Part shown: positions 2,586 through 52,430 of the stretch, one piece after another
Layout: every line of letters starts with the position of its first letter
Numbering within the stretch: the first letter of the stretch is position 1
Assembly (NCBI GenBank): GCA_030770425.1
Contig: JASJFT010000001.1
Span: 620,001 to 684,000, forward strand
DNA length: 64,000 nt
Direction of reading: 5' to 3'
Origin: Darksidea phi
Lineage: Eukaryota; Ascomycota; Dothideomycetes; Pleosporales; Lentitheciaceae
Notes under the pieces: generated by a model
The model's input: only the letters and a program-made list of their open reading frames with translations
What the model was told of the DNA's origin: nothing
The model's database searches: none
Program-made: the position numbers and the translations under genes

Positions 2586-5384
2586 ATGGCGTCCGGGCGC
2601 GCTCCCAGCCAGACGCCGGTGCCGACAACGGAAACAGCCGACCTGCCTGCCCACGATGGCGCAAAGTCGACTGTCACCGACGAGGAACTGAAGGCCATGG
2701 CGACTGCACTGGCGAATGTATATGCCTACAGAACTGAGGAGTGAGTGCGGCGCATCGACACCCGAGCTCCGGTGCGATGCAATTGCTAACGCGACACTAT
2801 AGCGGCTACGACCCCACGAAACTCTTCCAGCGCAAAGTGAACAAGCGCTCTCTGCCCGACTACTATGAAGTCATCAAAGAGCCCATGGCCCTCAGCGAGA
2901 TCAAACGAAAAGTTGCAGCGCAAGAGTACAGGTCCTTCGCTGAATACGTGCGCGACTTTGCGCTCATCCCTCACAACGCCCAGGTCTATAACAGGCAAGA
3001 CTCGCAAGCTTACGTTGATGCGCTCGAAGTCAAGAAGGCTCTGGAGCAGGAGCTCAAGAAACTAGTAGATGCTAAAGTCATAACGGAGGAGGTTGCGACC
3101 CTACCGTACCTGGGCGAGATCCCGGAGCAAGATCCTCTCTTGGCCGAAGAAGAGGAAGAGGAGGAGGAGGAGGATGACGAAGAAGAGGATGAAGAGCTGG
3201 AGTTGGAGGACGAAGATGAGGAGGACGAGGGCAAACGAAAGAGGAGGCGCGGGCCTCGCTCGACCGCCGCAATCACTAAGCGCGAAACCGGTACTCGAAA
3301 GGACCCCAAAGAAGAAGACCCTGAGTCGAGAAAAAAGCGAGGACGGCCGCCGCGGGTTGACACACCCATGGAAGCCAGAATCAAGGCTATTATGAAGGCC
3401 ATCCGAAAGCCTAGGAACCAGGCCAACAGGCTCATGGTGAGCGCCTTCGAAAAAGTCCCAGACAAGACCGTCATGCCTGAATATCATGCCGAGATTAAGA
3501 ATCCAATGGCCATGGATATCCTGAAGCGAAAGCTCAAGCGGAAGAAGTACAGTTCGGTCGATCACTTCATGCAGGATGTGGAGCTCATGTTTGAGAATGC
3601 CAAACAGTACAACGAGGAAGACAGCCAAATCTATCAAGACGCGGAATACCTACAGCAGGAAGCGCGTAAAACCGCGAAAGCCGAGAAGGAGAAGCCTGAC
3701 TCTAAGTTCGTCATGGAAGAAGGCCGCATACCCATGCCGAACGGCATTCTCCACAACGGCGAGCTGTGGAAGGTTGGAGACTGGGTTCATATTCAAAACG
3801 CAAACGATCTCACCAAGCCAATCGTGGCGCAAATATACCGAACTTGGCAAGATTCGGAAGGCAGCAGATGGGTGAACGCATGCTGGTACTATCGGCCAGA
3901 GCAGACAGTGCACCGCTTCGACCGGCATTTCTTAGAGAACGAAGTGGTGAAGACCGGCCAGTATCGCGATCACCCCATCGACGAGGTTGTAGACCGCTGC
4001 TTTGTCATGTTCGTGACTAGGTACAACAAGGGTCGCCCTCGAGATTTCCCGCCGGACAAGGAGATCTACGTCTGCGAAGCGCGGTACAATGAAGAAAACC
4101 ACAAGCTAAACAAGATTAAGACCTGGGCCAGTTGTCTGCCAGACGAGGTCCGAGACAAAGACTACGTTATGGATTTGTTTGATGCGCCACGGAAACTGAA
4201 GAAAGTTCCTAGTCCGATCGCTTACCTTCTGAAGGACGAGCAAAAGGAGGACGACGATCTTCCAAAACCCGAATGGGGTGCTGAAAACGCGCCTCCCAAG
4301 ATTGGTGCCGTTCACCGTCGCCCGCGTGATCCCAAGGTACGTCCAAACTTTTACTCGACCTTTATCTCTTAGGAAGTGAACAGTTGCTAAGTCTGCGGAT
4401 CAGGACTCTCCACCGCCAGAACCGACACCATCTCCACCACCGCCACCCCCGGTACCAGCAATGCCTACTCCAACTATTCCAACACCACAAGCCAATGGCT
4501 ACGGCGACGCTCAAAGGAGTTACCCACTCGCGCAGGCACCAACTGCGTCTCCTATGCCTGCACCAACACCCCAGCCACACCATGGGCAGGCCGCATACAC
4601 TCCGAGTCACTCAACACAATATCACACTCACTCGCAGTCGCCTGCTCCTCATATTACTCACCAAACCACTTCTCAAGCTCAAAGCTACCAGCCAATAACC
4701 CCGCACTTACCCTTTTCCACTCCACAATCTTCGGCACCCATTCCGCAGTATGCCACACCACGTCAAGCGCCATCATACCAGCAGCCTCTTGTTCACCAAG
4801 CACCGGTTGGGTATAAGGCACCCCAACCGGTGGAGGTGTACGTTCTGCCTGATCACGCCAACGCCTCCATTCCTACAGATATTCGCGAGCAGTTTCAGCG
4901 TGACGAGCAAGGTCGAGTACTTTTCTTCACGGCGCCGCCCGTAAATAGCTCAAGGATCGTGAAGAAAGAAGGGCAGGCTCTCGGTCACTCTGCAAGGTAT
5001 CTTGCGCTAAAGGCAAAGCGTGACGCTGAACGCGCTGCCAAACGCAAAGCCGATGAAGCGGACACTGCCGAGCGGGTAGAAGCCGCAAAGAAAGCACGGA
5101 TTGAAGCCGAACAAAAGCTTCAAAAGGACGTCGCTCAGCTCCGCATCAAGGCTATGCATGCGCTCGAGGACCAGCTCAGACTGGCCACAATGGAAGATCT
5201 ACAGATGTTGATGGGAAACGTGGAAAATGCAGATATACTGACGAAGAGCTTGGATCATCTGGTAGAGGTGCAGGAAGCAACAATTTCGAAAAACCAGGAG
5301 CGCGAAATTAGGGGGCAGCAGCAGAAGAGCAGTTGGCAAATACCCATCACAGGTATGACTGCGAGACTGGAGGAGAAAATTTGA
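2586..5384 (+). CDS. RSC chromatin-remodelling subunit, Rsc1/Rsc2-like (double bromodomain + BAH)
   Basis: Three exons, 2586-2740, 2803-4336 and 4404-5384, giving about 889 aa. The introns (62 and 67 nt) have GTGAGT and GTACGT donors, TAG and CAG acceptors and CTAAC/CTAAG branch-like sites. Domains in order: bromodomain 1 (about residues 35-150, with PDYYEVIKEPM), an almost pure Glu/Asp stretch (about 165-195), bromodomain 2 (about 240-345, with PEYHAEIKNPM), a BAH domain (about 370-510, from the GDWVHI motif), a Pro/Gln-rich linker, then a basic coiled-coil-like tail. This layout is that of Rsc1/Rsc2, which tether the RSC nucleosome remodeller to acetylated chromatin in the nucleus. In Pezizomycotina there is usually one Rsc1/2 gene, so no yeast paralogue name is assigned. 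Confidence 0.93.
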
Positions 5385-15601: not shown

Positions 15602-18600
15602 GGGTAATTATCTTTTAGCTGCCAGTTTGCGTATCGCGTCTTATGGCATGGCGTTCGGGAGTTTTCGGAATATGGGGGTGTCATTATGATTATGGGTGGC
15701 GCTGTGGCTTGAAAATTCTCCATCTTTTCATTGCCCTTTCTTGCTTTTTATTATTTTTATTTTATTTTTATTTTATTTTTATTTTATTTTTATTTTTATT
15801 TTATTTTTATTTTATTTTTATTTTATTTTTATTTTATTTTTATTTTTATTTTATTTTTATTTTATTTTTATTTTTATTTTTATTTTTATTTTTAGTTATA
15901 CTACCAATCATCTTTCCCATTCCACGCTGGGGACAAAAACCACACGTAGTCGCAAGGCGCTCCTCTATGGCTGAGTCGAGCATCCATCTACGAAGAAAAG
16001 TAAAAAAAGGAAAATGCAATCCAATTTCAAAACCTCGTTTGTCCCTACCCCCCTGTCTACGTCTATGTGACACTTGGGCAGCAATGCGTAGGCAGCTTTG
16101 CCAGTTGACGCACATGGTGTTAACGTTTCGGTGTCGCACAGAGCGCATATAGCATGCAGTCGGGAAATTTGCTCGCCTAGAACGTGAGTCGATGGCAGGG
16201 ACCCTGGTATATGGCAAGACTCCCCCATCAGAGCCACATCAGAGCCACACAACATCCACCGCCGAGTCTTGCCAAACAGCTTGACGGGTCGGCACAAGCA
16301 AATCGCCCCCCAGCCCACTTACCTTCTGCAACCGTAGCATCAGAAATCTTCATTCTTTGGACCTTGGACATCGCAGGCCCCCCAGCTCAGCATGTCGAAC
16401 CTTGTACCACGTCCAAGCCTTGGAAGCTCCCCTTGGGATCTTGGACTGGGACGAGGCTGAGTGCATGCATGTTTCGGTGTAGGGAACCGGCAGTCGAGCG
16501 AGATCGATATACGTGGTAACAAGGAGCCATCGTTTCATGGACCAGTTGCTCGGAACAGCTTGACGGGATTGCGGGAGGGCGGAGCCGGGCTTGGGAAGGC
16601 TTTTTCTTGTGCCAGTTGTTGGGATGGGTACTTGTCCATGAGATACGCCCTTGGTTTGGGCGCTGGATCCGGTGGCTGAAAGGGAGTTCTGGGGTCCTGG
16701 GGTAACGGATTTTTGGGGACTCTGAGTTGGGAAGATTGGCGAGGGTGAGGAGCCTGGATGTGTCTGTTCGGCAGTTGATGGGTGAGGGAAGGGTAGGGGG
16801 GTGTTGCTGTGTGATGACGGCAATCGTTACTTGCTCACTCGTATCCGCGCATGTCGATACGTCTAAATCGAAAACATCATTCTCAATATCGCGCACATGC
16901 TTTTGCAAACGTCGACACTAGGGCGCCAAACCTGCTACCTGGTCCGTAGACAAAGTGGCATGACTTTACCGGAATATTGGACAAGACGGAGGATCCACCG
17001 CCGGGATCAAATTGGCGTTCTGCGGCTGGAAGCGGCGGATACGATGCATGGGGATCTTAGTGATCCATCGCTCATCGTGGTACGCAGTGTTGCTGGTAAA
17101 GTGGACTGATTCTCAATCCCATTAATCTGGGACTTGGAAGATCTTCTTTGGGACAAGAGATACTAGAGCTTGGCCACGAGGCCTGTGTTTTGAGAGAAGA
17201 TGTAACTGGCTGTGTGAGGTTTGAAGTTCTAAAATGTAGCAAGACGCTGTTACTGACTAATGTCCAAGGCGAGGACACTTTGCCTTGACCGGCAGTTGCT
17301 GTGCCGCACCGGTGTTGGCCAGAAATGACTTGGTAGGGGTGTGAGCTATCAGTGCTCAGAGCATGCTGACACCATCTAAAGCGCCGGGCTTCATGGCGAG
17401 TGCGGTTCTACAGCAGATCTGGCTGCATCTACAAGGCATGCCATTATAGGCAGGGTTGGGCAGTGCGTACCGTGATGGAGATTGAATCAACTCCGGGTTA
17501 AGCGAAGTACGACTTGTCGGTCGGTAGTTCAGATGCAAGATAGCCATAGCGTCTCGTGCGTGAGGAGCAATAGGAATGCGGCTGATAGGATACTAAGTAA
17601 TGCCGTAGCCAGAACAAGCAAGACAAATATCCCAATGCTTTTGCTCGGCTATACTACGCCCGTATCTGCAAAGTTGGCTGGATGGCTGGCGGCGAAGGTC
17701 TAGGCCGGCTATCAGACTATGTTCTTGAGCCGAACGACTCTAGGTATTTGTCTATGGAAATCTTTCACCTTCGATAACTCGAACCATCCGATAGAATCAT
17801 ATGCTGCAAACGGCGATATCATGGGACTGTTCCCGATCTCAGGCATCACGAATTTTGAATGCTTCAATACCATCAGCAAACAAAATGACAAAACAGTAAA
17901 ATCCACAAAGACAAACTCGACTCACTATACGAATCATCCTAAACATAAGGCAAGAGCCCACCAAGCCGGGACAAGTCCTGGACCACGCACTAGTCTCTTG
18001 AGCAACGCTTGGGTCGTTAGTTGACTTCGTGCAGCGGGAGCCAAGTCAGGATGAGAAGTGCCACCAGTCTTTTCACGCTAGCATAGGGATGCACGAGCGG
18101 CCGTGCGTCTCGGTCCTGAAATCCCTGGGATATAACGTAGTTGTAGTTGCGACGTAACCCACGAAGCTACGAAAGGACTCCGGAATGCTGACCGGGTAGG
18201 GGATGGTGTGCATGTGACATTCCAAGTCTCTGGGCATCCTTGGCGTGTACCTTCTCGATCGGTATAGGTGTCCCATGTCGCTGGAGATGCAATATCCCTG
18301 TTCAGCTGATCAAGATACCGTCCGCAGAGTTTAGATGGGCGATGCATGCTGTTTCGGTATTTCGATGCGTTCCATCCATGAGTTGTCTCTCCCGATCGAT
18401 TGGTACGCGCCAAGGGGAAGGCACGCCTGAGCAAGTTTCAAGACATGAAGATAAAAGTACGATTGATTAACAATATGGTGTGCAGCTGAAATCGAACTGA
18501 TTAGAGAAGCCTGAATAAGAAAGGGGTGCCGTGTGAATGCGAGATGGAACGGGAGTACACAAGAACGCTCAATTTCGCCTCAAAACGCCGACCATGCTGA

Positions 18601-22697: not shown

Positions 22698-24339
22698 CTA
22701 AAAACCGAAACCGCCACCAGGAAAGCCGCCCTGTTGGAACTTAAAGCTGCCACCGGGGAAGCCGCCTGGGAAGCCGCCACCGCCCCCTTGTCTGAAGAAG
22801 AACTGTTGCCCACCGCCCTGTGAACCGAATGGTGAGCCATGGAAAGGATTACCCTGTTGCTCTTGGCTATTAGGGTCGTCGCCGTTGTCGAAGCGCTGCC
22901 GGAGCTCCGGATCGGAGAGGACCTCGTAGGCTTCGTTGACTGCGGCCATCTTCTTCTGGGCTTCCTCGGGGTCAATGCCGTTCGCTGAAGCTTTGTCTGG
23001 GTGATATTGCTTGGACATCGTACGGTAGGCCTTCTTGATCTGGCGCTCGTCGGCTTCACGGTCAACGCCGAGCACCTTGTAGTAGTCCTTTTGCTTGGAT
23101 CGCTTGAGTAGGGTGTGCGCCTTATGGAGAAGATCCTGGATCTTTTGGTGCTGGTGCTTCTCTTTTGCGGCGTCCAGAGTGCGGATAGCAGCTTCGAAGT
23201 CGTCAGCGTCAATTTCCCGCTGCGCTCGATTAAGAAGACCGTGAAGGGAAGAAGGGTTCAGTTGCAGGGCTTCTGTGCAGTATGGCGTTCCTTTCTTGAT
23301 ATTGTTCATCTGGGAAGTGGTTAGCTACGGTGGGGGGTTGATATGCGAGTCGTGTCCTTACCTCATTGTAAGCTTCGCAAGTCATCTCGATCAAGTTCAG
23401 ATATAGGCCCTGGGGAGAGTTCTTGAAGATGTAACCCTTATTTAGGTAGTCATTGAAGTCCTGTTTGACTTGCTTGAGCAGGCCAGGGTTCTCCTCGCCG
23501 CGATCTACCAGAAGCCTTGACCCGGTAGCGAACTGCTTCTTCTCAAAGAATTGGCGGACCTTCTTCAAGTCCTTCTCCAAGTTCTTTTCTCGTCTTCGCA
23601 GCTTCATGCAGGCCTTGGAATCCGGATCTGACTGCAGACACTGCGCAATGTGCTTGAGGCCCTTCTCTGTTTCGCCGAGCGAGTAGAAAGCCATGGCAGA
23701 GCTCTGGAGATGCGGCTCAATATCGCCCGTGTTGATCTGGAGAAGATGCTGTAGGTCACTGATACCCTCGACGACCTCGCCCTTCTCGAAGCGGCAGCGC
23801 GCGCGCGTCTTGCGGATATCATAGGCGGCGCCAGCTACCATGATAGCAACACCGGCGTGAGTGACACATGCCTCCCAATCGCCCTTGTCAGCAGCCTCCT
23901 GTGCCAAAACAGCAGCTCCCTGTGACTCTTCGAGTTGTGCAATCTCATCTGTCTTGCCCGCAGCCTCGTAATCTTTCCGCGCCGCAGCCCAGTCGGCCTT
24001 CCTCGCCCGAATCCTCGCCCTCTGAATCAATGCACCCTCAAATCCAGGCTTCAGTTCCAGAACCTTGTCGAAGTCATGTTGCGCTTGTACCGTCTTGCCT
24101 AACGAGAGGTATGCGGCGCCGCGCTTGAAGAATGTGAGATAGTTGCTGGGGTCGCGCGAGATGGCCGCGTCGAAGTATGTGAGGGCATCTTGGGCATTGC
24201 CAGTCGCAAGCTTTACGCCTGCATCTTTCAACAGCTGTGACACGGGTGTGTCTGTTGGTATATCTGACGTGGACAGCGCATTCGTAAGGGGCGCAGTGGA
24301 GAGAAGGCCCAAGGCCAGGGAAGAGAGGCGGAATATCAT
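22698..24339 (-). CDS. ER TPR/J-domain co-chaperone, P58IPK/DNAJC3-like
   Basis: Two exons on minus, 24339-23362 and 23309-22698 (52-nt intron), 529 aa. The N-terminus is a good signal peptide (hydrophobic LSSLALGLLSTAPLTNA), then TPR repeats fill about residues 35-395, then a J domain (about 401-468) with HPD at 429-431, then a Gly/Phe-rich tail ending GGGFGF. The TPR-then-J order with a signal peptide matches P58IPK/DNAJC3, which holds unfolded clients and passes them to the ER Hsp70 BiP. No HDEL/KDEL retention signal is present at the C-terminus, so ER retention must rely on partners, or the protein may leave the ER. The ATG at 24339 is the first in frame and sits right at the signal peptide. 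Confidence 0.93.
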
Positions 24340-24678
24340 GGTCGAGGGCAGACGTGGCAAATGAGCGGCAGGGGGTGGGCTGGCAGAAGGAGAAGAGGGG
24401 GAAGAGTGCCCTAAGGCATGGAAGGTGCAGGTTTATATGAGGGCGCTGAAGTGAACAAGTAACAAGTACCAGTGCAAGTGCAAGTTGTCCTTTCATGAGA
24501 ACGCCAGAGCGCCCGCAGGCCGGAACGCCGCATCCTTGTCAATGCGCTAGCGCGTGCGCCAACCGATGACATGGTTGCCGCGTCTCCCAAGAACTACTAC
24601 TAATAGCGGAGTCCACCCTCAGCCGCCTTTATTGCTACCCTTCACTTTCCCGAACCTCCTATACTCGTCACAGGATCC
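24340..24678. promoter_or_regulatory. Divergent promoter, co-chaperone / GH5
   Basis: 339 bp between the start codons of two divergent genes, so it carries both promoters. No specific site was identified with confidence. Confidence 0.5.
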
Positions 24679-27674: not shown

Positions 27675-30600
27675 ATGGATGCTGGGGCGCCTAAAGCGGC
27701 TGTCTTCGCGAACGGCCACGCCGGCGGCGGCGCACACCTCAACCACAATTCCACCGACCTCACCCAGGTCCTGCAAGCATTGCAAGCCATCTACGACCCC
27801 GCGTCGAGCAACGACACCCGCCGCCATGCCACCCAGTACCTCGAAGAAGCCAAGCGCCACCCCGAGGCACCCTCCCACGGCCGCACACTGGCCCTCGATC
27901 GGTCGCAGCCCGCACAGCTCCGCCACTATGGCCTCACCATGCTCGAATACTCGATCAAATACAACTGGGAAGAGTTCACGGTAGAGCAGGGCGAGGCGCT
28001 GCGGAATTATGTCGTGGAGCTGGCACAGAACATTGCAGAGGAAGATCCGCTCTATCTCCGGAACAAAGTCGCGCAGCTGTGGACCGAAGTCGCAAAGCGG
28101 TCATGGGGCGCCGACTGGATGAACATGGATCAGCTGCTGGTGGAGCTGTGGCAGACGTCGCTGCACCATCAGGCTGTCGTGCTGTATGTACTCGAGGCGC
28201 TCTCGGAAGAGGTCTTCAACCGCGAGGACGCGACTGCGGGGCTGCGGGGGAGCGACCTGGGACGGGCATGTGTCGACATCTTCACACCGACTGCGGTGCT
28301 CACCGAACATCTCCCCACGCGCGACAAGAATCTGGACGTGCGGTATGGGGAGGAGGGCTGGCTCAAAAGGCTATGTGACAACCTCGCATGGTGCCTGTCT
28401 CAGGACTACCAGAACCAGGAAGTCGTGCGGTTATGCGCCGTGAAAACCATGGCAGCCCTCCGAGCATCCATGACCTGGGTCATTCCGAAGGCGATTGCGG
28501 CCGTTCAGGTAATTGAGCACGTGTGCAAGGCGCTTGCGGTGCCAGTAGTCGAACTACAACTGGTATGGTCTTACCTCACCGACATTCATTGCACGTGCTA
28601 ATTGCGCGATGCCAGGCTGCTGTTGAAGTGCTACAAGCCATCTACAGCCGGCACCATCTCCATGACGACGAGTTTGTTGAGCTCGTGTGCCCAATGTTCA
28701 CCCCAGGGAGTGTTTCGCTGCTACGCGAGGTCTACGGCTGGACGCTATCAGACATGAACATCCATGATCTGAACGAGCAGAAGTACACTTTGTGCAAAAA
28801 GCTTTCAGAGGCATGTCTCATCTGGTCTTTGCCCCTTGGTTCTTACTAATCTAAGTAGCTGGCCAATAGCCTTGCCTTGTTCATCGAGCAGAAGCCCCAG
28901 CACGTGCCGGAGGGCAGCGATCTGCCCGGCATATTCCAGCTGCTTTTTGATATTTGCCGCAACCCTAGCCTCGTCGTCTCGATCCCCGTTCTTCACTGCT
29001 GGAGTAAATTGCTCCGCTCCCGCATCGTTCGCGATTCTTCTGTTGTGTCGTCGATGGTTGGCGGTCTTCTAGAGATATGCTGTGCGCGCTTAATTCGCTA
29101 TGAGGTTTTCCCCGAAGACTCCCAGGATGTCACTATTCTCTTTCTGAACGAGGATATTGACACGGTTCCGGAGCGACATGCCTTCCTAGGTAACTATCGG
29201 AGGTTCTGCGCTGATGTGATCGATGTTCTCGTGCGAAGGACGCCTGTTGAGGCCATGGAGCACATTCTCAGTCAAGCGACAAGCACATTTCAAAATCTCT
29301 ACAGTGATCAGCCTCCCTTTCAACCCCAAAATTTCACCAAGCACTCGACGCCGGCTCTCCGCGTCGATGCTCAAGTCACCGTCATCGATGCTGCCCTGAA
29401 AGGCTATCTGAAGTGGTTATCAACTCATGGTTCGGAGCCACAGGAAGACGAGCGGAAACGCACCGCCATGGAAGACTCCTTTGAGCAATGGTCGAGGCAG
29501 TTGCTGCAAGCTCGGTTCGAGGACCCTGAAATTGCGAAGAAAGTCATCCAGCTCATGTCGACGTTCTCAACGAAAGCCCTTGCTGAACGTCCTGCCTTTG
29601 CTCTCAACTTTCTGGAATATATGCTCACTATCAGGCTTGCGGACAATCCAAACTACGCACAGTACTCGGATGCTGTCAAGGACTTGGAACGTATCTGTAG
29701 TCTTGAGATGCAGAAACTTGCCATGAAATTTGCCGACGATTTCATGAATGTATACGACAACCTGGAGCGGAAGATCAACGAAGTAATCGCTGATCCGTCG
29801 TCAGACGAACGTCAGAGGTTAGCCTACTCCGCTTTTCTATTCATTATCATCCACCGGTGTACGACATTGGATCGCGAGACCCAGGAAAATCGCATGCGGC
29901 AGATGCTGGACCAGGTCAAGGATGCCTGGCGAAATGATGAATTCTCCAAAGCGATTTCTTCGTTTCAATCATTCTGCGGCATTTTGGGTATGGAGCATCT
30001 ACCGGATTTCCTGTTAACGAACAACTTCCGAGGTGTACAGGACTGGACTGAACAGCCACTCAGCAGTGATGGCCAGGCTCTCCAAGCCGCCATCGTTGAG
30101 CGCTCGCAGCAGCTCCCCCTTCGCTTGACGAAAACTCTACTTGCTGCATCGACTGAGAAGTTGCGGGATGGCTCGGCTGCCTACGAAACCGCTACGGCGT
30201 TGTGGGCGGAAGCTATTCCTGTCATACTGCCGAACCTTCTCCAGCTTGTCAGTCATGCGCAAGCGTTCAACGACATTGACAGCAACTGGTCCTATCTTCC
30301 GTCGGAGCTACAACAAGTCATTCGTAGAGTGTTGACCGACCGCTTCTGGCAAGCTGGCATTTCCACTGAGAGTCGAGACGACTTTTTCGCTCGTGTGAGC
30401 GGATCGAAGTCAACATACGAAGGATTCGCATCCACTATACGAGGTACCATTCGACAGATTCGTGAGAGCTCTTACTACATACTCTACTCTCTTACGCGCT
30501 TCAAAGAGTTCTTTTACGGCATCCCCGACCTCCCAGGACCATTAAGCCAGGCATTGTTCGGCCATGCTCATGCTTTAACTGCCCACCACCTGTCCGTCTT

Positions 30601-31596
30601 GTTGACCGTTTCCACCCATCTCATCGAAGGCTGTCCATCGCAATTACGCCCACAGTTCTTACCTGCGATGATCGAAGGATTGTTCCGCGAGCTAAATAAA
30701 AAGATCTCTACCGAGTGGGACGAGCTTAGCCGCCAGATTGCGAACTCGGGTGGCAACGACAATTTGACGGATGAGATGAAGACGGAGAGTATTTTGCGTC
30801 AGCTCACATACTCTTCGGTCTCACTTGTTGCTGTTTTGCTGGATTCAAGGCAGGGTAAGTGCGATATTTCTATGGTGTGCGAAAAAGGTTTCGGCTGCGA
30901 GCTGGTCGTTCGATCACGAAGCCGGCTTCTACTCCTAGAACCTTTGATCAATCAATTGCTAACCAACGCGCAGAATTTGCCCGCCAAGATGAGTACAGCA
31001 AGAAGGAAGGACCTCCCATGTGCGAATTCATCCTCAACGCACCCGAAGTGCTTGAGCCGATCCTGCTCTTCTGCACCTCGTGCATACGCGTGCGCGACAC
31101 TAGATCCGTGGTCACCATGATCCGAGTTCTACGTACGCTACTTCCTCGGTTCAAGGAGAAGAGCCCCATTCGCGACTACTTCTGCAACGACATCCTCAAG
31201 AACGCGATCACCAGTTTACACGAACCCTATTTCGTCGATTGCCAAAAGGATCTCGCCTCGCTCATTGCTGGTATCATCCATCTCGACGAAGAGATACCAC
31301 GTAGCATTATCCTAAGTTTACCTGGCATGGGTGACCCGTACCGCACCGATAAGCGGTTATCCAAACTTCGAAGTGCGAACCGCAGCGATGACCGAATGCA
31401 GCGCTCCATCGTTCTGGACCTTCTATCAAGCGTCCGCGGTGTCGGCATCCACGAGCAGGGCAAGATTGAGCGTCCAAAACCCAAAAAGAAGACCGCATTT
31501 CAAGAGCAGTATATGAGTGTGGATGAGCCAGCAACCATCGTTCGCGGAACGTCACCGGAGTTAGCGGGCGTGTCGGACATGTTTGGCGATTCTTAG
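27675..31596 (+). CDS. Karyopherin, Msn5/exportin-5 family
   Basis: Four exons, 27675-28508, 28616-28810, 28859-30854 and 30974-31596, encoding 1215 aa. The protein is helical throughout, with an N-terminal importin-beta-like/Xpo1 region (EDPLYLRNKVAQLWTEVAKR) followed by the long exportin-5 HEAT array and a Lys-rich tail ending MFGDS. Length and sequence style fit Msn5 (KapJ in Aspergillus), which exports phosphorylated transcription factors from, and carries some cargo into, the nucleus with Ran-GTP. The second intron (28811-28858) starts GCATGT and ends AG, with a TACTAAT branch site. It is a GC-AG intron, since no GT donor restores the frame. The first intron is 107 nt and the third 119 nt. 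Confidence 0.93.
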
Positions 31597-36553: not shown

Positions 36554-37813
36554 ATGACTTCGGCGCACGGGTCTGCAGCGGATATCCCGGTTGTGGATTT
36601 CGGCACGTTTCTGAATGGCAGCGAGGAAGGGAAGAAAGATGTAGCGAGGCAAATTGACAAGGCGTTTCGGGACGTAGGCTTCGTTTACCTGAAGAATCAT
36701 GGCGTGAAGAAGGAGGTTGTTGAGGAGTGCTTTGAATGGGTATGTAGTCCCGCTGTTGCCCCTAGCTTTCCTCAGGCGCATTTCTGTACTATATGTAAGG
36801 CGAGTATGCTGATTGTTCCATATAGAACAAGAAGTTTTTCGCTCTCCCGACCGAGACGAAGATGTTGGCTCCACATCCACCGGGCCACTCGCATCATCGC
36901 GGGTACTCAGCGCCAGGGTTGGAGAGAATAAGCCAGCATGAGTACGATGCTGAGAAGCTTACCAAGTTGCGCGAGGTACACTAAAAGAAAACCCTTTTCT
37001 TTCCCATGCCTAATGCGTGATCGATTTGAACGTAGACTTACACACACCCGACAGGTACCAGACTACAAAGAATCCTACGAATGCGGCAACGTCCACGACG
37101 AAGCCCAACCAAACATCTGGCTCCCCGAAGATAAACTCCCCGGCTTCCGCGCTTTCATGGAATCCTACTTCACCACTTGCACAGAGCTCGTCCACCACAT
37201 CCTCGACGCGCTCAGCATCGCGCTCAACGTACCCGCCCCAGGCCTCTCGCCCACGCATAAAGATTCACATTTCCAGCTCCGTCTCCTGCACTACCCGGCC
37301 ATCTCCGCCTCTGAGCTCAAAAACAACGCCCGCTCCCGCATACATGCGCACTCCGATTTCGGCACCCTAACCCTCCTCTTCCAAGATAGCGTCGGCGGCC
37401 TCGAAGTCGAAGATCCCCATCAACCAGGCAGTTTCAGACCGGCTCCTCCGATCGACGATACCGTGCTCATCAATATAGGCGATTTGATGGCGCGCTGGTC
37501 GAATGATCGATGGCGCTCTACTGTTCATCGCGTAGGATTACCTCCGAATCTTTCTGAGGCGGTGGAGACAAAGATTCCGGGGCCGGGTGTGAATACGGAA
37601 GGGCAGCGGATGGAGAAAGTGGTGGAAGGAGAGCAGATGGTTCCAGAGCGGTATAGCATTCCTTTCTTTGCGACGGCGGACATGGACACTATCATTGATG
37701 CGCTGCCGGGGTGTTGGGATGAGGAGAGACCAAAAAAGTATGAAGCCGTTACGGCGTGGGGTTATGTGCAGATGCGTATGGCCACATTATTTGAGTCTCG
37801 TGGAAACAGCTGA
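36554..37813 (+). CDS. 2-oxoglutarate/Fe(II)-dependent oxygenase (isopenicillin N synthase-like)
   Basis: Three exons, 36554-36739, 36826-36975 and 37055-37813, encoding 364 aa; introns 86 and 79 nt. The N-terminal DIOX_N domain begins IPVVDFGTFL and has the VGFVYLKNHGV block. The C-terminal jelly-roll carries the iron triad H211, D213 (AHSDFGTLTLLFQD) and H270 (STVHRVG), with the 2-oxoglutarate Arg311 and Ser in RYSIPFF. All cofactor residues are present, so the enzyme should be active. The substrate cannot be told; fungal relatives include gibberellin-type, thymine/ethylene-forming and secondary-metabolite oxygenases. No biosynthetic neighbours are visible. Confidence 0.93.
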
Positions 37814-37899: not shown

Positions 37900-40800
37900 C
37901 TAAGCACTCTGCAAACACTCCGTTAACGTACCCCAACCATCTTTACACCAAGGCGCTAGCACAACAGCCCGCTGCGCATCCTTCACATCTCCCGTCCCGG
38001 CAAAGGCCCTTCCAAGAGCCATCGCATTCAGTGTCCCATGGGGCGGCGCACTTCTCCTGGCCGTTTCTTTCGCCATCCTAGCTGAAAACGCATCGCCACC
38101 AGCAGCATCAGCGAGCTCCGCCCACCCCGTATGTTTCCATGGCGTTAGCATAACACTATACCTCGCCTCATCAAGCTCACTCTCCTTGCCACCAAGGAAG
38201 GAGCCTATCGCCTCAATGATCTTCTCCACGCGGGCGAGCTGCTCAGTTGTCAGCTCTTTGTTAGTGCGCAGGGAGTCGAGATCTTCTTTGACGGCTTCCA
38301 TCGTGTCTATGTCCTCGTCTACGACTGCCATAGCTCCCAAGAGCGTGACAACGCCGACGTGGCGGTCGTGTGCTTCAACCGCAGCGAAGAGCTGCTGTCT
38401 TGCTACTTCTTTCTCGTTTTCTCCACCTTTGGCCCAGAGAACCTCGGCGAGCAGGCAGATGATGTCTGGATTAGAACCTGTAGCTTCGAGCGACGTGCGA
38501 AAGTAAGGTATTGCAGCGTCGAGATCGCCCTGGAAGTAGTGGGCAAGACCGGCTGTGAGCCGTGTAGACAGTCTTATCTTCGATAGGGTGTCGGCACTCA
38601 AAATTGAATTGTTCGATTCGGTGTCGAAATCAGACAGCAGACCTAAGGCTGTTTCAGCCTCGTTGACTGCGGAACTGTCGGAGCCAGTGGCGAGCAAATT
38701 CCTAGCGAGATCATTCTTGGCCTGAGCGTATCGTGCAAGCGCAGATATTGATTCAGAAGTTTCATAGTCCTGCTCCGCCCGGTCGCAAATGGCAGTCAAG
38801 GCCCGAATAGCAGCATCGTGATTGCCTAAGCGCTCGAGGAACAGAGCTGCCAGATGCTGGTGAGGAATGTCGTATGGGGCTTGGAATATTAGTTGGTGAA
38901 GCGCAAACAGCGGTTGGATGAGGTTGGTAATGTTGCTGGATGCAGCCGGAGATGAAACCAAGAAATCAAAGGTGGATGTCGCATACTGGCGTTTGGGAAG
39001 CAGAGGTGAGGAGTCGGACAGCTCGAAGGCATGTGTAAAGTGTGATAAAGCTTCGTTAAATTCACCGTAAAGTAAAGCAACAATGCCTTCGCCCACCCAT
39101 GCCTGAGCGTAGTCGGGATCAGTTGACTGGGCGCGGGCAAACGCTTGATGGGCAAGTGCGTGGTCGTTCTGAAGCAGGTACAGTGTTCCAAGATTGGTCC
39201 ACGTACGTGCACTCCGCTCATTGAGATGTAGAGCGCGAACGAAAGCATGCTGAGCGACCTTTGGGCTCAGAGAAGTCGTGATAACTCCAAGTGAGTTCCA
39301 AAACTCGGCATTGCCTGCTTCTAGCTCGATAGCGCGTTTGAAGCACTTCATAGCCGCTCGTAGGAATATCGTAAGATGTTGTCCTTGCTCACTCTCCTGT
39401 TCTAGACATACGTGAGCGCGATACTCGGTCCAACCTAGGTTGTACCACGCAACTGCCTGAGCGTGAATGTCCCCCGTGCAACTCGCTATCGCCCGTTTCT
39501 GCGCAAGGATCGCGGCGTGAAGTATTCTCGTTAACAGTGGGTGCTCCTCTGAAGGGAGCTTGTCCAGATCGTCTGCGCCAACGCCATCTATAGACTTGTG
39601 GGTGTCGTAATCGATTTCGATATTTGACTTGCTGTGGAGGAGTTCCGCAACAACAGTTGTCGGAAACTGATCAATCTTCTTTTGGATCCATGTGAACAGG
39701 CCGCATGCGTCACCTACCGCTTTCCAGAGATTGAAAGCATCCGGCTTGTATTCGATGATTGTCATGGCCACTTGGATAGCTCGTAGTGCACTGTCGGCTG
39801 CCTCTCCAAAGAAACCGGTCTCAATGCATCGCCACCCTTTCTCGACAAGTGTTTGTGTAAGCGCGATAGATACTCCAAACTCTTGAGGCCTGTCAGCCAT
39901 AACATCTTCGTATCCCTTGATAGCCTCATCAAACTCGCTTAGCTCACGATTGACGTTTGCTAGCATATACTTTGCGAACCAACTTTCACCGTCGAGCTTT
40001 TTCATGACGACACCGTCGGTAGGATTCTGGGCATAGTTGAATGCTTTCGCTGCAGAGTTGTACCGCCCCGAGTGGTGGTAGCTTTCGCCTAGGCCGATAT
40101 ATGAGTGGTAGTCATTCGGGCTAAGGCGAAGAGCTGATAGGAAAGAAACGATGCTCTTCTGATACTCCTGTTTGTTCATTTGGACAACACCCAGAGCGGA
40201 GAACGGCCAGCTGACGCCCTTTTTCCTTGAACCGGGTGTGGGACGGGCCTTGCCTGAATCAACGACACGCTGGGATATGACTTCGACAATGTCCCAATCG
40301 CCCTGGTCAGCGAACAGACGAGCAAGACGTTCAGCTGCAACAAGCTCGGAAGGCGACAGCTCGAAGGCTTTCTGAAAACACTGCCTAGCTCGCTTCTTGT
40401 CTTTGCTGTACACTTCGTAGTATATCCCTAGCTTCGTATATGCTGGTGCAAAGTTTGGATTTGCTTTGATTGCCGCAAGAAATTGAGCATAGCCACCCTG
40501 ACGGTCTCGGCGAGCCGCTTTTGATGAATCGAGCTCCCATATACAGACACCGATTCTATATAATGTTTGAGCGCGGAGTTCTCGGCCTCGTGGCTTCGTA
40601 GCATCTAATTGTGGGTAATCCAGATATTCTCGCAGTCTCGTCAAGCCTGTCTGATAGTCGCCGCTGAGTGCCTGACACCAGGCAGCTTCTGCACCAATGC
40701 GTCCATTTGATGGATCCTGCTTGAGTGCTTGCTCAAGAAACTCGACAGCATGCGCATGCTCCTCTTCTTCCTCTAGAATTAGACCTATACCGATCAATGC

Positions 40801-41461
40801 TGGAGTAAATTGAGGCGTGCGCTTGAGAATGGACTGAAATATATCTTTCGCTTCTGAGTGATTCCTTGGTGCTTGATAGTATACTAAAGCGGTAGCAAGT
40901 GTGCTGTTGAGAGCATCTCGAATCCTGTGCCTTGTTAGTATGTGACCTGATCTTGACCACTGCCATGTGACTACCTCTGGAAAGGCAGGTCCGTTTTCTT
41001 GGACTCAGCGGCCGCGAGCTTCAGCCCCTTTCGAGTTATCTCTACGGCGCTCTCATATTCTTCCAACGAGAGGTAGTAGTCTCCGAGCAAACAATGTGCC
41101 AGGGTAGAGTTTTTTGCCTCCAATATACCTTCCTATTCGTCCGTTAGCAAGCGGTCTTCATGCTTGGTAAATAAAAGAGTAACTAGAGCAGTGCAGATGC
41201 ACGCGTACCCACCGTCATCAGCATCAAGCAGTCCTCTTGCGAAAGCGGACCATCCTGAAATAGAGCTACCCCACCTTCGCTCAAATCTGGTGTACCGGTC
41301 TCTTCTCCATCCACCGTAAGCGGATATTTCGATATTCCGCTGCTCAAATAGCCAGTCAAGACTTTGGATAGTCCCTCGTTCGGAAAGAGCTCGACGAACT
41401 GCCGTAATGTGTGGATATCTAAATCTAGCAGATCGTGCGCGCTGTCCGCGCGCGACGCCAT
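37900..41461 (-). CDS. SKI3 (3' part): Ski3 C-terminal part (superkiller TPR protein), separate gene
   Basis: Three exons on minus, 41461-41213, 41132-40975 and 40924-37900, encoding 1143 aa; introns 80 and 50 nt. Seen: many TPR repeats, plus Ski3-specific blocks such as YYEVYSKDKKRARQCFQKAF, SWPFSALGVVQMNKQEY and AWVGEGIVALLYGEF, and a C-terminus typical of Ski3. Ski3 is the scaffold of the Ski2-Ski3-Ski8 complex, which feeds mRNA to the cytoplasmic exosome. The family's first roughly 290 residues are missing here. Homology begins only after a short novel leader (MASRADSAHDLLD), at LDIHTLRQF. The missing part is encoded head to head on the plus strand at 41767-42685. The ATG at 41461 is the first in frame after a stop. 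Confidence 0.9.
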
Positions 41462-41766
41462 CGGAACACAACGAGAGAAAGTCACTCGACTGATGCCGCA
41501 ATTTTCGAAATAGGCACAGATCAAATGTAGTGTGACGACGCCAAAGGAATGCCGTGGGAGAGATGGTGGTGGGATTTTTGGAGGGGCACAGATGTGATGT
41601 TTGTGCCTCTCATAAGGCTGATTTAAGCTTTCGCTAAACGCGGGACGTCATTGTCTGCCATCCCACTTTGTCCCTCCTCAATCTTTCACCCTCAATGGCG
41701 GATACATAGCGTTAATGTGCCTCTCAGGCCCATGCACATCTGCAAAAACATACCTACCCTGTAGCC
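41462..41766. promoter_or_regulatory. Bidirectional promoter between the two Ski3 halves
   Basis: 305 bp separating the divergent start codons of the Ski3 C-terminal part (minus) and N-terminal part (plus). If the gene was split by inversion of its 5' end, this would be the original SKI3 promoter now firing in both directions. No known factor site was identified with confidence. Confidence 0.6.
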
Positions 41767-42685
41767 ATGTCTACCAAGGCCGCACTCAAGGCGGCGAAGT
41801 CAGCGATCGATTCGAAGAAATGGGACGAGGCGAAGGAGCAAGCAAACGCGGTGCTTGAAAAAGACGCCCAGAACTACTTCGCGAAGCTGTTTCTCGGGCG
41901 TGCGAACGATGGTCTAGACAGGCTGGAAGACGCGGCGCAGGCGTACAACGACGCGACGAGGATCAAACCTGACGACCCACAGGCATGGCTGGGTTTGCGG
42001 GGCTTGTATGAGAAGCAGGGTCCAGTCAAGGTGGATGAGAATACAGAAGTTGGTTTGAAACTGGCGCAGATCTACGCAGAACTGTATGCTATACAGTCCA
42101 TCTAGTATGACCATGTACACTGTAGCTTATGCGTTTAGGGACGATGCCCACAAGTCTCAATCCGCGATAGACAAGCTCGTCGATCACGCCCGTAGGCATG
42201 CGACAAAGCTGCAATATGCGCGCGCGCTCGCTACACAGCTTCCGACATCCCCTATCTACTCCTACCTTGAGGGTCGGCTTCCCCAGCCCGCCACTGTCTA
42301 CACCCGCATCGCCGAGATTCACGAAACCGAAGAGGCGCAGACGATCAAGCGTCACATCGACGAACGCAAGACACGCCTCGGTGCGACCATTGAAGGCACA
42401 ACGTCGCAAGTCAAGAACGAGGTTTACGGCGCGAGTCCATTGGAGGGCATATACCAGAACATCATTGACTGGACAAACGATGACGGGCTACGGAGGGAGT
42501 ACGAGGAGAAGTTGCTACAGAGGGCTTACGATACTTTGCTCGCTCTACCAGCTGGGAAGAAAGCGGAGAAAAGGGACAAAGTGATGAAGCTGGCACATGA
42601 CATGGTCATCATTCGGCACCCCTTCTTGCTTGCGTGGCAGATAGAGTTGGAGTGGAGGTCAGAGTTGGAGATTAAGGCTCATTGA
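41767..42685 (+). CDS. SKI3 (5' part): Ski3 N-terminal part (superkiller TPR protein), separate gene
   Basis: Two exons, 41767-42083 and 42139-42685 (55-nt intron, phase consistent), encoding 287 aa. The N-terminus MSTKAALKAAKSAIDSKKW and the first TPR (NYFAKLFLGRANDGLDR, IKPDDPQAWLGL) match the start of fungal Ski3 proteins. The C-terminal block KVMKLAHDMVIIRHPFLLAW matches the segment about 265-290 residues into full-length Ski3. It then stops after SELEIKAH, just where the minus-strand part takes up the family sequence. It has its own start, splice sites and stop, so it looks like a working gene, not debris. Together with the other half the residue count (1430) equals a normal Ski3. Inferred role: N-terminal arm of the Ski complex scaffold, supplied in trans. 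Confidence 0.88.
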
Positions 42686-42886
42686 GTGTGCATCATTGGT
42701 GCTGAATCACATTGGAAGGCGTTTGAGGCGACAGTACCGTTGGGTAATAAAAGGCCCATTTCTTCTATTTTCTGTTATGATATCCATAGAGGCATTGCTA
42801 GCCTAGTACCAGAATGAATCACAGACATTCCTGTAATTCATATCGATTCCCTAAACGCCATCCATGCAATGCGCTACGCTGATCGC

Positions 42887-43501
42887 TCATGAACCTGCAG
42901 CGTTCACAACCCTCCTCTTCTCCTCTGCCGAATACATGCTTCCTCCCTGCTTCAGCGCGTGGATAAGCATAGGAAGACTGCTACTCTTGAAATCTTTCGC
43001 CTCGCGAACTTTGTCAAGATCGTCTGCTAGTTCTTCCGTCACCTTGCGCAAATAAATGGACGCAAAGTCCTCCGACTCCTTGGGAGAGGATTTCGCCTGA
43101 GGCTTTGACGTCGACGCTAGGGCTGGTGTTGCATCTGTATCATTCATTTGGACATCGCTTTGAGTCTCTTGCTTTGATGCCGTTTTCGCAGTTTTTGCCT
43201 TCTTCGACTTTTTGGCGGGTCCTGGAAATGTAGTCGAAGCGTTCTAACCCTTTCTCAGCACAGCTCTTCCAACCCAGCGCAATTACAGAGAAAAGCATAC
43301 TTCTTCGCTCACCGCTTTCGACTTCTCAGTTTTCGCATCAGAGACATCGCTGTCGCTTTCCGAGGAGGAAATGGAGACTGCCGAGTTAGCGTTCCATCAC
43401 AATTTATTGAGAAGACATTGCCCACCAACCGTCCGACTCTTGCTCTTCTTCGACCCCGGTCTCATGCGCTTCTCTGAGCTGTGCGCTTTTGATGCCTCCA
43501 T
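42887..43501 (-). CDS. RSA3: Ribosome assembly protein Rsa3
   Basis: Three exons on minus, 43501-43426, 43377-43301 and 43243-42887, encoding 169 aa; introns 48 and 57 nt. A basic, Ser-rich N-terminal half (SISSSESDSDVSD, then Lys-rich stretches) leads into the conserved Rsa3 domain: FASIYLRKVTEELADDLDKVR, KSSSLPMLIHALKQG, EEKRRVV. Rsa3 is a nucleolar factor for 60S ribosomal subunit assembly, working with the Dbp6 helicase group in yeast. An alternative second donor (43312) would keep phase but would not reach the domain frame with a good acceptor. Its 3' end faces the stop of the Ski3 N-terminal gene about 200 bp away, next to the proposed inversion breakpoint. Confidence 0.88.
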
Positions 43502-48304: not shown

Positions 48305-51079
48305 TCACATCAAACCATAATCATTTTCATCCATAGGCAACGGTTCCACCATGCTCAATTCCCCAAACTCACTACTAACCTCATCATCACTACTCTCACC
48401 CTCGTTGGTCGCAACCTCCGTAATTACAACAGCAGGGACATCTTTCGGTGCCCTAGAAGTATCCATCGTCGAAGGCACAACCAGCGGACTTTTCGGCATC
48501 TCTTTCAAAGACGGGGAGACTTTCTGGGTTTCGAGATCCCGCATCTTGATCTTATATTCTTCCTCTTCGTCGGACGAAGTAGGCTCTGTGAAGTTCGTGC
48601 GTTGGCGAGGTGCTGCGGGAGTGGGATCCATGTTTGAGGGAGCCTGACGTTGGTGCGAGCGGGAGGATACTGGAAAGCTAGATTGTCTAGAAATACTCGA
48701 AGGCCGACCTTCCGTTTTGATGGAGCCAGACAGCGGATCCATCGCCACAGATGATGCATCATGGGGCGGTTGTTGATTCGGGGTCGTAGATGCCGGCATT
48801 GTCACTTGCCTCCGTATCTGCGGTTGTTGCGCAGACCTTGATTGCGTCATGATTGGTCGTCGTAATGGCGACTGCTGGCTGATGCTCTGATTCGGCGAAG
48901 GTGTTAGCGGGCCGGACACGTTGACCAAAGTATTCGACCGGTCTTGTACCACAATCATTTCCGTTGCGCCTTGAGCTGATGGGTCCGGCTGATGGTTCTC
49001 CTTGTGCTTCTTGACATGCTCTCTAACCTGTTGTTTCTTCCTCTCGGCTACCTCCAAAGCTCGTTCCTGTTCAGCGACTCGGTTGAAGTCGATGTCACCA
49101 AACCCGATCTTAGTCAGGATGGTGCCGACGAGGTAGCGATACTTGTCATGACCATTGACGAGCGCGCTCATGTCGACGTTTTCAATTCCGTAAATGTCTT
49201 TGATATCTTGTAAGCCTGCAACGCCGAATTCGAGCTTTGCTGAACGATAGAGAAAGCCAAGTATATAGTCTTCGGTGCTGTACACGTTCACCACACGGGC
49301 AGCAACGACCGATCGTATGAGTCTCCAGGACTTGCTGTCGGAAGGGGCTGGTGTTCCCATTAGAACCACGGACTCCACGAGGCCGAAGGCGTGCTGTTCA
49401 GCAAGCTCGACTAGACAAGAATAGATTACTCTTGCTCCGATTGAGTATCCCATCAAAGTCACTGGACGTTTGCCTTGTACGCCGTCGATAAGGGCATGAG
49501 CTAAAACTTTTCCGGCCTTGTCCGCTCGGGCAAGCGCCACGCTGAATGGATTGTCGAGAACACTTGCAACTTTCACCAACCCGAGAGGCCAGAGTCCGGC
49601 GTATAGCGCTCCAAGAAGGGTGCGACTGACGATAGTATACGTGACACCGTCCCAGGCGTAGCTGAAGAGCACGTCATTGAGGGAATTGCCCAATCGGAGC
49701 ATGGCGTCGAGTTCGAAGCGAAGCGCAAACGGCTCAGTCCCAGCGGCATCGATGACCTCCCATGGTTTGCTAACGTCAGCTGGGGCGCTGAGCCAACCAC
49801 TAATGCCAATAGAGACGCGAAGGCGATGCTGCTCACGCTTCATAGGATCACGGGCGTCTTGCTCTTCAGCCCACTCATGATCACGCTGCGCTGATGGCCG
49901 TTCCGGGTCTGCAATATTTAGCGTGAGCCTAATAGCTGGACATTTTAACCTACCCTGAACAGGAATGAACTCAAAGTCTTGGACTTCTCTGGCATATTGC
50001 TCCATGATTCGTCCCGTCATCTTCGCACCGTAAGCTCCAAAAAGGGATCCAACAAGAACAGAGCTGCCAGCAAGAGCTCCCAGATAGGTTGAGACCACAC
50101 CGAGGCCCAGGCCGCCCATGACGGTACCAAGTCCCGCAGCTAGAAGCGGAGCCGCAAGACCCCCAGTAACACCAATAAGGACGGCGCCACCCACTGCCGC
50201 TAAGCCGACTTTCCACTTCCTTGATGCTGCATCGTTAGAAGTTTGCTTCTTGGCGGATTCTTCGGCATCCATCTGTGAAGCAGCAGTGGCGAGGAGGCCT
50301 TGAGCGACCGACTTCTCATGCTCGGAAAGGATATCCGACTCTAACTCTAGACTGCTTGCAAGATGGAGGAGTAGGACCCGCGAGTGTGCAGGATAGTGTT
50401 CCAAGCTGAGGAGGAGCAAGAGGAGACAGTGCAAGATCAGCACCCTTTTCTCCTCGTGGAACGCTAGGAGCTTAGTCTCAATAACGTCGTAGTGCCCAAG
50501 CTTTGTCTTCCCGCTCTTTGCATAAGTCTCGCTCCTGAATGGATCTCCCTCAAAATCGATCAGCAGCGAATTGCCCTGTTTCTGCCTCGTCGCCTCTTCT
50601 AGCATCTGCTTTCTCTTCGTTTTCGCTTGTCGGACGACCTCGCCTCGCACGCAGAGAACATCGCAGATCCGGTGCATGACGCCAGCTCGCCATTTGTCGA
50701 AGAAGGTGAGAGCGCTCCTTCGCAAACCCTGCATCTGCGTCGATTCCACCTCCATCCGTCTCGCCCGTCTAGCCCTCTCCGCGACCATTGTTGCCTCATC
50801 TTGCGGCTCATCGAAGCTTATAAGATCCTGTGCGGGGCTCTTCGGCTTTGGCGAGGGTGTAGGGATCGCAGCGGCAGAGGATGCCGTCTCGTGCGTCTTG
50901 TCAGGGTCGAAGGTGGCAATCAGATCGCTGCGCATTGCATCAGTGCACAGCAGCACCAGCAGGGCGAGCTCGACGCGAAGGGCGGGGGTCTCGAGAACAG
51001 AGGTGAGCGAGGTGCCTTCATCTTGTTTGGAGGCATCGGAGCCGGCACCCGTAATGACATTGGCGACTTTGAAGAGCAT
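48305..51079 (-). CDS. DUF726/TMCO4-family alpha/beta hydrolase (Mil1-like)
   Basis: The ATG at 51079 begins a frame of 924 codons; a probable 45-nt intron (49909-49953, GTAGGT...CAG, in frame) would give about 909 aa. Features in order: an N-terminal helical region with a mixed-charge stretch, a cluster of small-residue hydrophobic segments (VGGAVLIGVTGGLAAPLLAAG and the next 50 residues) that are likely membrane-embedded, an alpha/beta-hydrolase core with the nucleophile-elbow GYSIG (49452-49436), then a long disordered Ser/Pro/Gln tail ending in acidic residues. The family includes yeast Mil1, which binds the clathrin adaptor AP-1, and animal TMCO4. A lipase-like role in Golgi/endosome traffic is inferred. 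The frame is open upstream to a TAA near 51187 without an ATG, so an upstream exon cannot be excluded. Confidence 0.82.
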   Translation of the reverse strand: MLFKVANVITGAGSDASKQDEGTSLTSVLETPALRVELALLVLLCTDAMRSDLIATFDPDKTHETASSAAAIPTPSPKPKSPAQDLISFDEPQDEATMVAERARRARRMEVESTQMQGLRRSALTFFDKWRAGVMHRICDVLCVRGEVVRQAKTKRKQMLEEATRQKQGNSLLIDFEGDPFRSETYAKSGKTKLGHYDVIETKLLAFHEEKRVLILHCLLLLLLSLEHYPAHSRVLLLHLASSLELESDILSEHEKSVAQGLLATAASQMDAEESAKKQTSNDAASRKWKVGLAAVGGAVLIGVTGGLAAPLLAAGLGTVMGGLGLGVVSTYLGALAGSSVLVGSLFGAYGAKMTGRIMEQYAREVQDFEFIPVQGRLKCPAIRLTLNIADPERPSAQRDHEWAEEQDARDPMKREQHRLRVSIGISGWLSAPADVSKPWEVIDAAGTEPFALRFELDAMLRLGNSLNDVLFSYAWDGVTYTIVSRTLLGALYAGLWPLGLVKVASVLDNPFSVALARADKAGKVLAHALIDGVQGKRPVTLMGYSIGARVIYSCLVELAEQHAFGLVESVVLMGTPAPSDSKSWRLIRSVVAARVVNVYSTEDYILGFLYRSAKLEFGVAGLQDIKDIYGIENVDMSALVNGHDKYRYLVGTILTKIGFGDIDFNRVAEQERALEVAERKKQQVREHVKKHKENHQPDPSAQGATEMIVVQDRSNTLVNVSGPLTPSPNQSISQQSPLRRPIMTQSRSAQQPQIRRQVTMPASTTPNQQPPHDASSVAMDPLSGSIKTEGRPSSISRQSSFPVSSRSHQRQAPSNMDPTPAAPRQRTNFTEPTSSDEEEEYKIKMRDLETQKVSPSLKEMPKSPLVVPSTMDTSRAPKDVPAVVITEVATNEGESSDDEVSSEFGELSMVEPLPMDENDYGLM

Positions 51080-52430
51080 ACTGGAGTCTTTGCAGTCTGC
51101 GGGCAGATTGACGTGGAGCTCAGTGCTGCGATTGCGGAATGGCTGCCTTATGGAGTGGAGGTACAAGCTTCGCCCGTTTGGGGCTTAGATGCTATGGAAC
51201 CTGGAGGATTCGGCCCCCATTTATCGATTTGCCACCCATGGTAAGGTACATGCTGGGAAAGGCAGGTCTTTAACATGACGGTAAGGTTTGATATGTCTCG
51301 TGGAGCGTGTTTGTGATACTAGACGCTGAGGACGGCATCCTCAAGCGCTGTGGGCCGTCGCGAGAAGACGTGACTTGGTGTTAGCGTGTCGGTAGCGCCA
51401 TGTTCCCTATCTCGCATTCCCCCGACTTAACAGACGCAACATCTCCCCGGACCATTGCATCCTTATGCGCGCTCAAATTTCCTTTCTTTTTCTCCAAGGC
51501 TGCTGCCATCGCACTCACTCATAGCTGCAATACCCTGCATCCCTGTACCACAAAATACCAAGAGCAGCATGGTCCGAATGTAGCGACGACAAGGATACTT
51601 CGAAGAGCACGCCTGTAAATATCAAAACCTGAGACGGTCCACATTACTCTCTTCCCCTTTCAAAGCCTTGTCCGCAAGGGCCTTTAGTGAAAAAGTCGAA
51701 TTATCGTTGAAAACCGAAAAGTAAGAGAAAAAAAAAAGGGAAAAAGAGGAGGGGAGGTTAGGTACCGATTGACCCCCTTGAAAACATGTCGGCCAGTACC
51801 CTCTACACCCCCAGAGCGTAAAAGGGTTTGGTGGCCCTACGCATGTCTATAAAGTTTGCCATACCAAGATAACATCTCTGAAGAGAAAGTGTTGAAGCCT
51901 ATATAGACATCCTCGAAAGAGAATTTTAAAGCTTTAGGTGCACGGGTTGGTGGGATCGATCAACTGCCGGAAATAGCCTGAGTCCAGCCGTTTCCTAGAT
52001 GTGCTAGTTCGGTGCTTTTGGGCATCACATCCCTAGGGTAGGCGTAAGTGCAACATGGCCAGTCTTTACGAAGACGGACCTCATTGCCGACTAGTGAGGT
52101 ACAAAGGGTGTGTCAACCGGGGCCGCAGCCTAGGCCATGGCGTGGAAGAGCAAGCTCCCTCCTCTCCCTTGGACTTATCGCCCCTAGCAGCACCGGGCAG
52201 TTCGCGCTTAAACATCGGCCCGGCCAGCTACGTAATTTCGATTGCACAGAATATAAGAAGAAAAGAACAGATAGTGTTAAGCGGTTTATCCCGCAGTTGA
52301 GGTTCAGCAGAGAGTCGGTTTCCAAGATCCCCGGCCATGCCATGTTATAATGTCAAAAAGCGATGATTTCTTCTGCTGCCGATTCTTAATACTTCGCCGT
52401 TCTACCTAAATGCCGGGGTGATGCGAAGTA
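51080..52430. other. Intergenic region
   Basis: 1.35 kb. It contains the promoter of the DUF726 gene and a purine-rich stretch with A10 (about 51728-51755). No gene is supported. Confidence 0.45.

Follow-up and report, generated by a model that had tools for sequence, protein, structure and literature searches.

In the present study, we analyzed a stretch of 64,000 nucleotides from the ascomycete Darksidea phi (assembly GCA_030770425.1, contig JASJFT010000001.1, positions 620,001 to 684,000 of the forward strand; hereafter the window) and found that SKI3 is very probably split there into two genes on opposite strands. Ski3 is the scaffold of a helicase complex that feeds mRNA to the RNA exosome. 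The plus-strand gene encodes the N-terminal part of the protein (N half) and the minus-strand gene encodes the remainder (C half), with the two start codons facing away from each other. The layout of the locus, which is exact and unusual, suggested that gene fission by a small inversion was the most likely origin of this arrangement. The explanation that we consider best for the locus as a whole, which combines fission by inversion, two working chains and a shared promoter, has a little less than an even chance of being correct.

The Two Genes Encode Consecutive Parts of Ski3

The gene models were rebuilt from the six-frame translation, with the introns set by eye from the reading frames and from homology, not from RNA. 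All three introns showed GT-AG borders and in-frame joining of the exons. The two introns of the C half were placed at 41212-41133 (80 nt) and 40974-40925 (50 nt), the latter with a CTAAC branch-like site. The 1430 codons of both halves contained neither a stop nor a frameshift. The N-half protein ended in ...LLAWQIELEWRSELEIKAH, followed by the stop codon, and the C-half protein began with MASRADSAHDLLDLDIHTLRQF. The halves had a summed length of 1430 aa, and the solved yeast Ski3 chain (5mc6_i) has 1432 residues, in agreement with a preliminary description of this DNA in which the pieces were said to add up to about a whole Ski3.

A search of the PDB gave yeast Ski3 as the best match of the N half, and residues 4-280 aligned to yeast residues 5-293 (whole-sequence E 1.1e-20), which bore out the assignment of the plus-strand gene to the first ~290 residues of Ski3. 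The N half also contained TPR_22 (PF18833) at residues 141-228, with a score of 96.8 bits against a cut-off of 27.2. In the same type of search, residues 73-1031 of the C half aligned to yeast residues 405-1336 (E 1.3e-99). Yeast residues ~335-404 and the last ~96 residues fell outside the aligned stretches. Both the yeast and the human Ski3 chains matched in the PDB are single chains.

The joint between the halves was evaluated by two comparisons. HMMER placed C-half residues 9-48 on yeast residues 295-334 at a score of just 2 bits, or 4.8 bits when the query was shortened. An ungapped comparison of the same 40 residues gave a score of 65 with 13 identities, which was reached by 0 of 20,000 shuffles (mean -37.7, standard deviation (SD) 14.2), and the best placement of the yeast 295-334 block in either half was C residue 9. 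On the basis of the HMMER alignments and the ungapped test, the N half stops at yeast residue 293 and the C half starts at yeast residue 295. As judged from the amino acid sequences, the two halves are consecutive parts of Ski3 that meet without gap or overlap, as the preliminary description had expected of an alignment to full-length Ski3, and the minus-strand gene does open with the next block of the family. The novel leader of the C half, put at ~13 residues in that description, was shortened to ~8 residues by the HMMER alignment, which left ~7 residues of the N-half tail outside the homology.

In the human Ski3 chain (7qdr_B), N-half residues 3-135 corresponded to residues 31-163 and C-half residues 254-435 to residues 479-650. 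The break lies between these two anchors and would thus most likely fall inside the N-terminal arm (tetratricopeptide repeats (TPR) 1-8) of the human protein. A single-sequence AlphaFold model of the N half had a mean predicted local distance difference test score of 43 and was useless. Scanned against bacterial and archaeal genomes, the C exon gave 37 pattern matches, and against viral contigs 16; no relative was among them.

SKI3 Copy Number and Ski Partners in the Assembly

The genome searches were six-frame searches of one assembly, which comprises 51.35 Mb in 477 contigs and may be incomplete. The main C exon and each of the two N exons gave one match apiece, at this locus. TPR_22 likewise had its sole match here. 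No intact SKI3, encoding one polypeptide of ~1430 aa, was found in the assembly; there were two genes, of 287 and 1143 aa. The second intact copy elsewhere in the genome that would have refuted the preliminary description was therefore not found in this assembly.

A DSHCT search of the assembly returned three matches at two loci, on contigs C135 and C147. The main exon at the C135 locus scored 878 bits against yeast SKI2 and 463 against human MTR4, and the Ski2_N domain (PF17911) was recognized with 132.9 bits. The later frames of this SKI2 reach a stop codon, although the gene was not spliced in full. The predicted gene indicates that SKI2 is present with its N domain and is intact-looking. 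The C147 locus was identified as MTR4, with scores of 933 bits to a FRQ-interacting RNA helicase chain, 912 bits to yeast DOB1 and 478 bits to human SKI2. The GC content at third codon positions (GC3) was unusually high in the MTR4 main exon (L010 2558-4585, contig C147), at 0.84 in the first 286 codons versus 0.53 for SKI2.

With regard to the content of the assembly, a search for 5.8S rRNA gave one weak, doubtful match (49 bits; 39 of 1495 candidates scored), and the cut-off was likewise exceeded in 5 of 14 control genomes. The assembly may therefore lack the rDNA repeat.

Proposed Origin of the Split by a Small Inversion

Flipping the segment from ~41.45 kb to 42.66-42.89 kb (~1.2-1.45 kb) produced one minus-strand SKI3 adjoining RSA3. 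This result supported the earlier proposal that inverting a ~1.2-1.4 kb segment of an ancestral minus-strand gene yields the present layout, and RSA3, named there as the neighbor, was recognized by its PF14615 match. In the proposed course of events, one breakpoint would lie directly after the EW motif that closes the first ~280 residues, the other would lie between the SKI3 promoter and the 3' end of RSA3, and the 5' coding part would have been inverted along with its promoter. The old SKI3 promoter would now be located in 41462-41766, where it may fire both ways and serve both halves. The N half would retain the old start codon, and the C half would have taken over an in-frame ATG that lies 8 codons before the homology begins. 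The start codon has the context GCCATG in the N half and CCGATG in the C half. According to the Kozak rule, GCCATG is the better of the two, which fits an old start in the N half and a captured start in the C half.

Fission has been described as harder than fusion, since one of the products needs a new promoter (PMC2557144, on gene fission in fungi). In the proposed inversion, the promoter would have moved together with the 5' part and would thus sit between the two pieces, which would remove the obstacle of a missing promoter. The relevant passages of PMC3516569 report that inversions are the main and frequent mode of rearrangement in Dothideomycetes.

Possible Function of the Two Chains

Passages of PMC8860381 (2022) report that the N arm of human SKI3 (TPR 1-8) was flexible throughout the structural data obtained there, and that SKI2N and both copies of SKI8 are held by TPR 9-40, the C arm. 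Passages of PMC11540850 (2024) assign the SKI7 helix to TPR 29-30 and a contact with the 40S subunit to TPR 39-40, and mention that several N-terminal TPRs could not be modelled in one map. Since human SKI3 is described as contacting SKI2 and SKI8 through its C arm, a break at this position should be tolerated. If the break is inside the N arm, the C-half protein would retain every contact described in these passages on the human complex.

In the proposed mechanism, the 1143-aa protein would act as a working scaffold with the arm that, in human SKI3, binds two copies of SKI8 and the N domain of SKI2, whereas the 287-aa protein would form a free N-terminal TPR arm. We infer that, most probably, the N arm attaches in trans to the C solenoid by stacking on its first helices, which are exposed. 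Both halves would be expressed. That both chains work is nearly as likely as that they do not. A fuller picture, in which the Ski complex consists of Ski2, Ski3C, Ski3N and two Ski8, has its two Ski3 chains made from one bidirectional promoter that the inversion created, and includes the N arm as a separate subunit able to come and go, is more tentative still.

Weighing of the Evidence and Alternative Explanations

Several observations count against fission by inversion with two working chains. Simple repeats near young breakpoints are described in the passages of PMC3516569 considered here, and Tandem Repeats Finder (score at least 30; 37-45 kb) detected only a weak 14-bp array of 2.2 copies at 42679-42709, in the right breakpoint zone. 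When breaks were placed at random in the window, an in-frame upstream ATG occurred within 60 codons in ~33% of trials, and random frames reached a stop within 8 codons in 24%. Because the capture of an ATG and an early stop are frequent by chance, regular start and stop codons are no evidence of selection. The proper starts, introns and stops given in the preliminary description were present, and the starts and stops were a weak sign that neither gene has decayed. The intact frames over 1430 codons indicate a recent event or the retention of both halves and cannot tell which, and they are also expected from a very recent, non-functional inversion. In addition, passages of PMC11540850 state that budding yeast does not share the contact between SKI3 and SKI7 described for human, and the N arm may matter more in fungi than in human.

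GC3 was 0.683 in the N half and 0.525 in the C half, and the GC content at fourfold sites was 0.617 and 0.481, respectively (Fisher p 0.006). The control set comprised 30 other open frames (not annotated genes) of at least 450 codons, drawn from the window, a 200-kb part of contig C1 and the stretches that contain SKI2 and MTR4. These frames had a 5' GC3 excess with a mean of 0.031, an SD of 0.069 and a maximum of 0.199, and the split halves differed by 0.158. At fourfold sites, slices as rich as the N half numbered 13 of 55. The GC3 contrast as a mark of separate histories was rejected, since 5' gradients in the control frames were about as large. The contrast, although on the high side, lies within the range of such gradients; it neither dates the split nor proves independence.

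A rather improbable alternative is that the true genome carries one collinear SKI3, of which ~1.3 kb was flipped in the assembly. Reversing the flip does give a one-piece gene of normal length, and the assembly is divided into 477 contigs. As a rule, a false inversion in an assembly depends on inverted repeats. The junctions showed no long repeat of this kind, which makes a repeat-driven assembly error unlikely: exact inverted matches between the zones of the two junctions (41390-41480 and 42640-42900) did not exceed 8 nt, a length reached in 59 of 300 shuffles. The longest inverted repeat listed for 37-44 kb (26 nt, 81% complementary) was away from the junctions, and an exact 12-nt inverted match between 41664-41675 and 42572-42583 (E 0.056) was inside the segment and off the breakpoints. 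The window contains no gap letters, and the DNA of each junction was found once in the assembly, with a single match, at this locus, for the left junction plus intergenic DNA (41380-41800) and for the right junction (42600-42950). No other domain divided between strands was seen by Pfam among 18 further exons or frames (16 from the window and 2 of SKI2; 12 matched a family and 6 none), which is a weak check and not a survey. Two complementary divergent halves would likewise result if the whole gene had been duplicated in inverted orientation and one copy had then lost the N part and the other the C part; we regard such an inverted duplication as quite improbable, given that the flanking intergenic stretches of 305 bp and 201 bp contained no convincing remnants (best tblastn E 0.34; 0.43 in the 305-bp stretch) and no large inverted repeat was present.

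The halves could also be joined at the RNA level, with the N transcript (GT at 42658 or 42664) trans-spliced to the opposite-strand C transcript (acceptor ending at 41442). Of three AGs tested, one was in frame, and with it either GT restores the reading frame; the product through GT 42658 would read ...EW-SAH-DLLDLDIH... and have near yeast length. Trans-splicing is nevertheless very improbable. A comparable donor/acceptor pair occurred in 28% of 5,000 shuffled junctions, the predicted pairing of the RNA ends was weaker than in shuffles (-64.9 versus -74.0, SD 6.8), and GTCAGA is a poor fungal donor. A home-made tally of donor sites gave no usable signal. Alternatively, the GT and AG sites might have belonged to an old cis intron that the inversion disrupted. 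A further explanation accepts the split and takes the N half to be dispensable or dying, so that the C half alone acts as Ski3 or the Ski complex is being lost in the strain. This fits the flexibility of the human N arm and the described partner contacts on the C arm, and a recent event would not yet show decay. The N half is, however, fully open, with its intron in frame and a strong TPR_22 score, and SKI2 looks intact. We consider this explanation unlikely, although less so than an assembly error.

Neighboring Genes and Other Features of the Window

The features of the locus are listed in Table 1. An Rfam scan of the window at gathering scores gave 0 matches.

Table 1. Coordinates in the window of the two SKI3 genes, the putative breakpoint zones and the adjacent genes (aa, amino acids).
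Feature	Position	Strand	Details
SKI3 N-half gene	41767-42685	+	Exons 41767-42083, 42139-42685; intron 42084-42138 (55 nt); 287 aa
SKI3 C-half gene	37900-41461	-	Exons 41461-41213, 41132-40975, 40924-37900; 1143 aa
Region between start codons	41462-41766	.	305 bp; divergent starts
Left breakpoint zone (putative)	41437-41461	.	C homology from residue 9 (41437); 8-residue leader upstream
Right breakpoint zone (putative)	42659-42886	.	N homology stops at residue 280 (42659-42661); RSA3 frame ends 42887
RSA3 (ribosome-assembly protein 3), part of gene, right neighbor	42887-43243	-	PF14615, 71.8 bits
2OG-Fe(II) oxygenase gene exon, left neighbor, convergent with C half	36932-37813	+	PF03171, 62.1 bits

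Other genes were observed elsewhere in the window. An exon of the Exportin-5 family was located at 28859-31117 (+; PF19273, 210.7 bits), and the same-strand frames beside it probably belong to the same gene. A long frame at 48305-51181 (-) contained a DUF726 domain (382 bits). At 22698-24432 (-) there was a TPR protein whose next frame looked DnaJ-like by eye, and the gene presumably resembles the P58 co-chaperone. Two bromodomain stretches and a BAH domain were found at 2738-4369 (+), in a gene that we take to resemble Rsc1/Rsc2. Finally, a low-complexity frame at 15619-16152 (+), in which F, L, I and Y residues form a long run, looks like a simple DNA repeat.

Relation to Known Systems and Implications

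The locus resembles the known Ski3/SKIC3 (TTC37), the scaffold of Ski2-Ski3-Ski8, in that it is collinear with yeast Ski3 over most of its length, contains TPR_22 and is accompanied in the genome by SKI2 with Ski2_N. It differs in being encoded by two opposite-strand genes with the break in the N-terminal TPR region. As in the fungal gene fissions treated in the relevant part of PMC2557144, where inversion is named as a possible cause, one ancestral coding sequence would have given two genes; unlike the cases in that part, the pieces here are adjacent and divergent, with a likely promoter between them. Passages of PMC8494341 describe a trans-spliced split Hsp90 in Giardia, which is likewise a conserved eukaryotic protein from two separate open reading frames. 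The Giardia frames are 777 kb apart and their RNAs are joined, whereas each Ski3 half has its own start and stop, and there was no indication that the two RNAs pair. No report of a split SKI3, or of Ski3 together with gene fission, was found in open-licence PubMed Central.

If both chains work, the locus would be a natural experiment in which the N arm of Ski3 has been uncoupled from the remaining scaffold. In the human structures of the two studies cited above, this arm is either flexible or modelled in part, and the split would allow its role to be tested directly. The locus would also be a clear example of fission in which both products obtain a promoter through the inversion.

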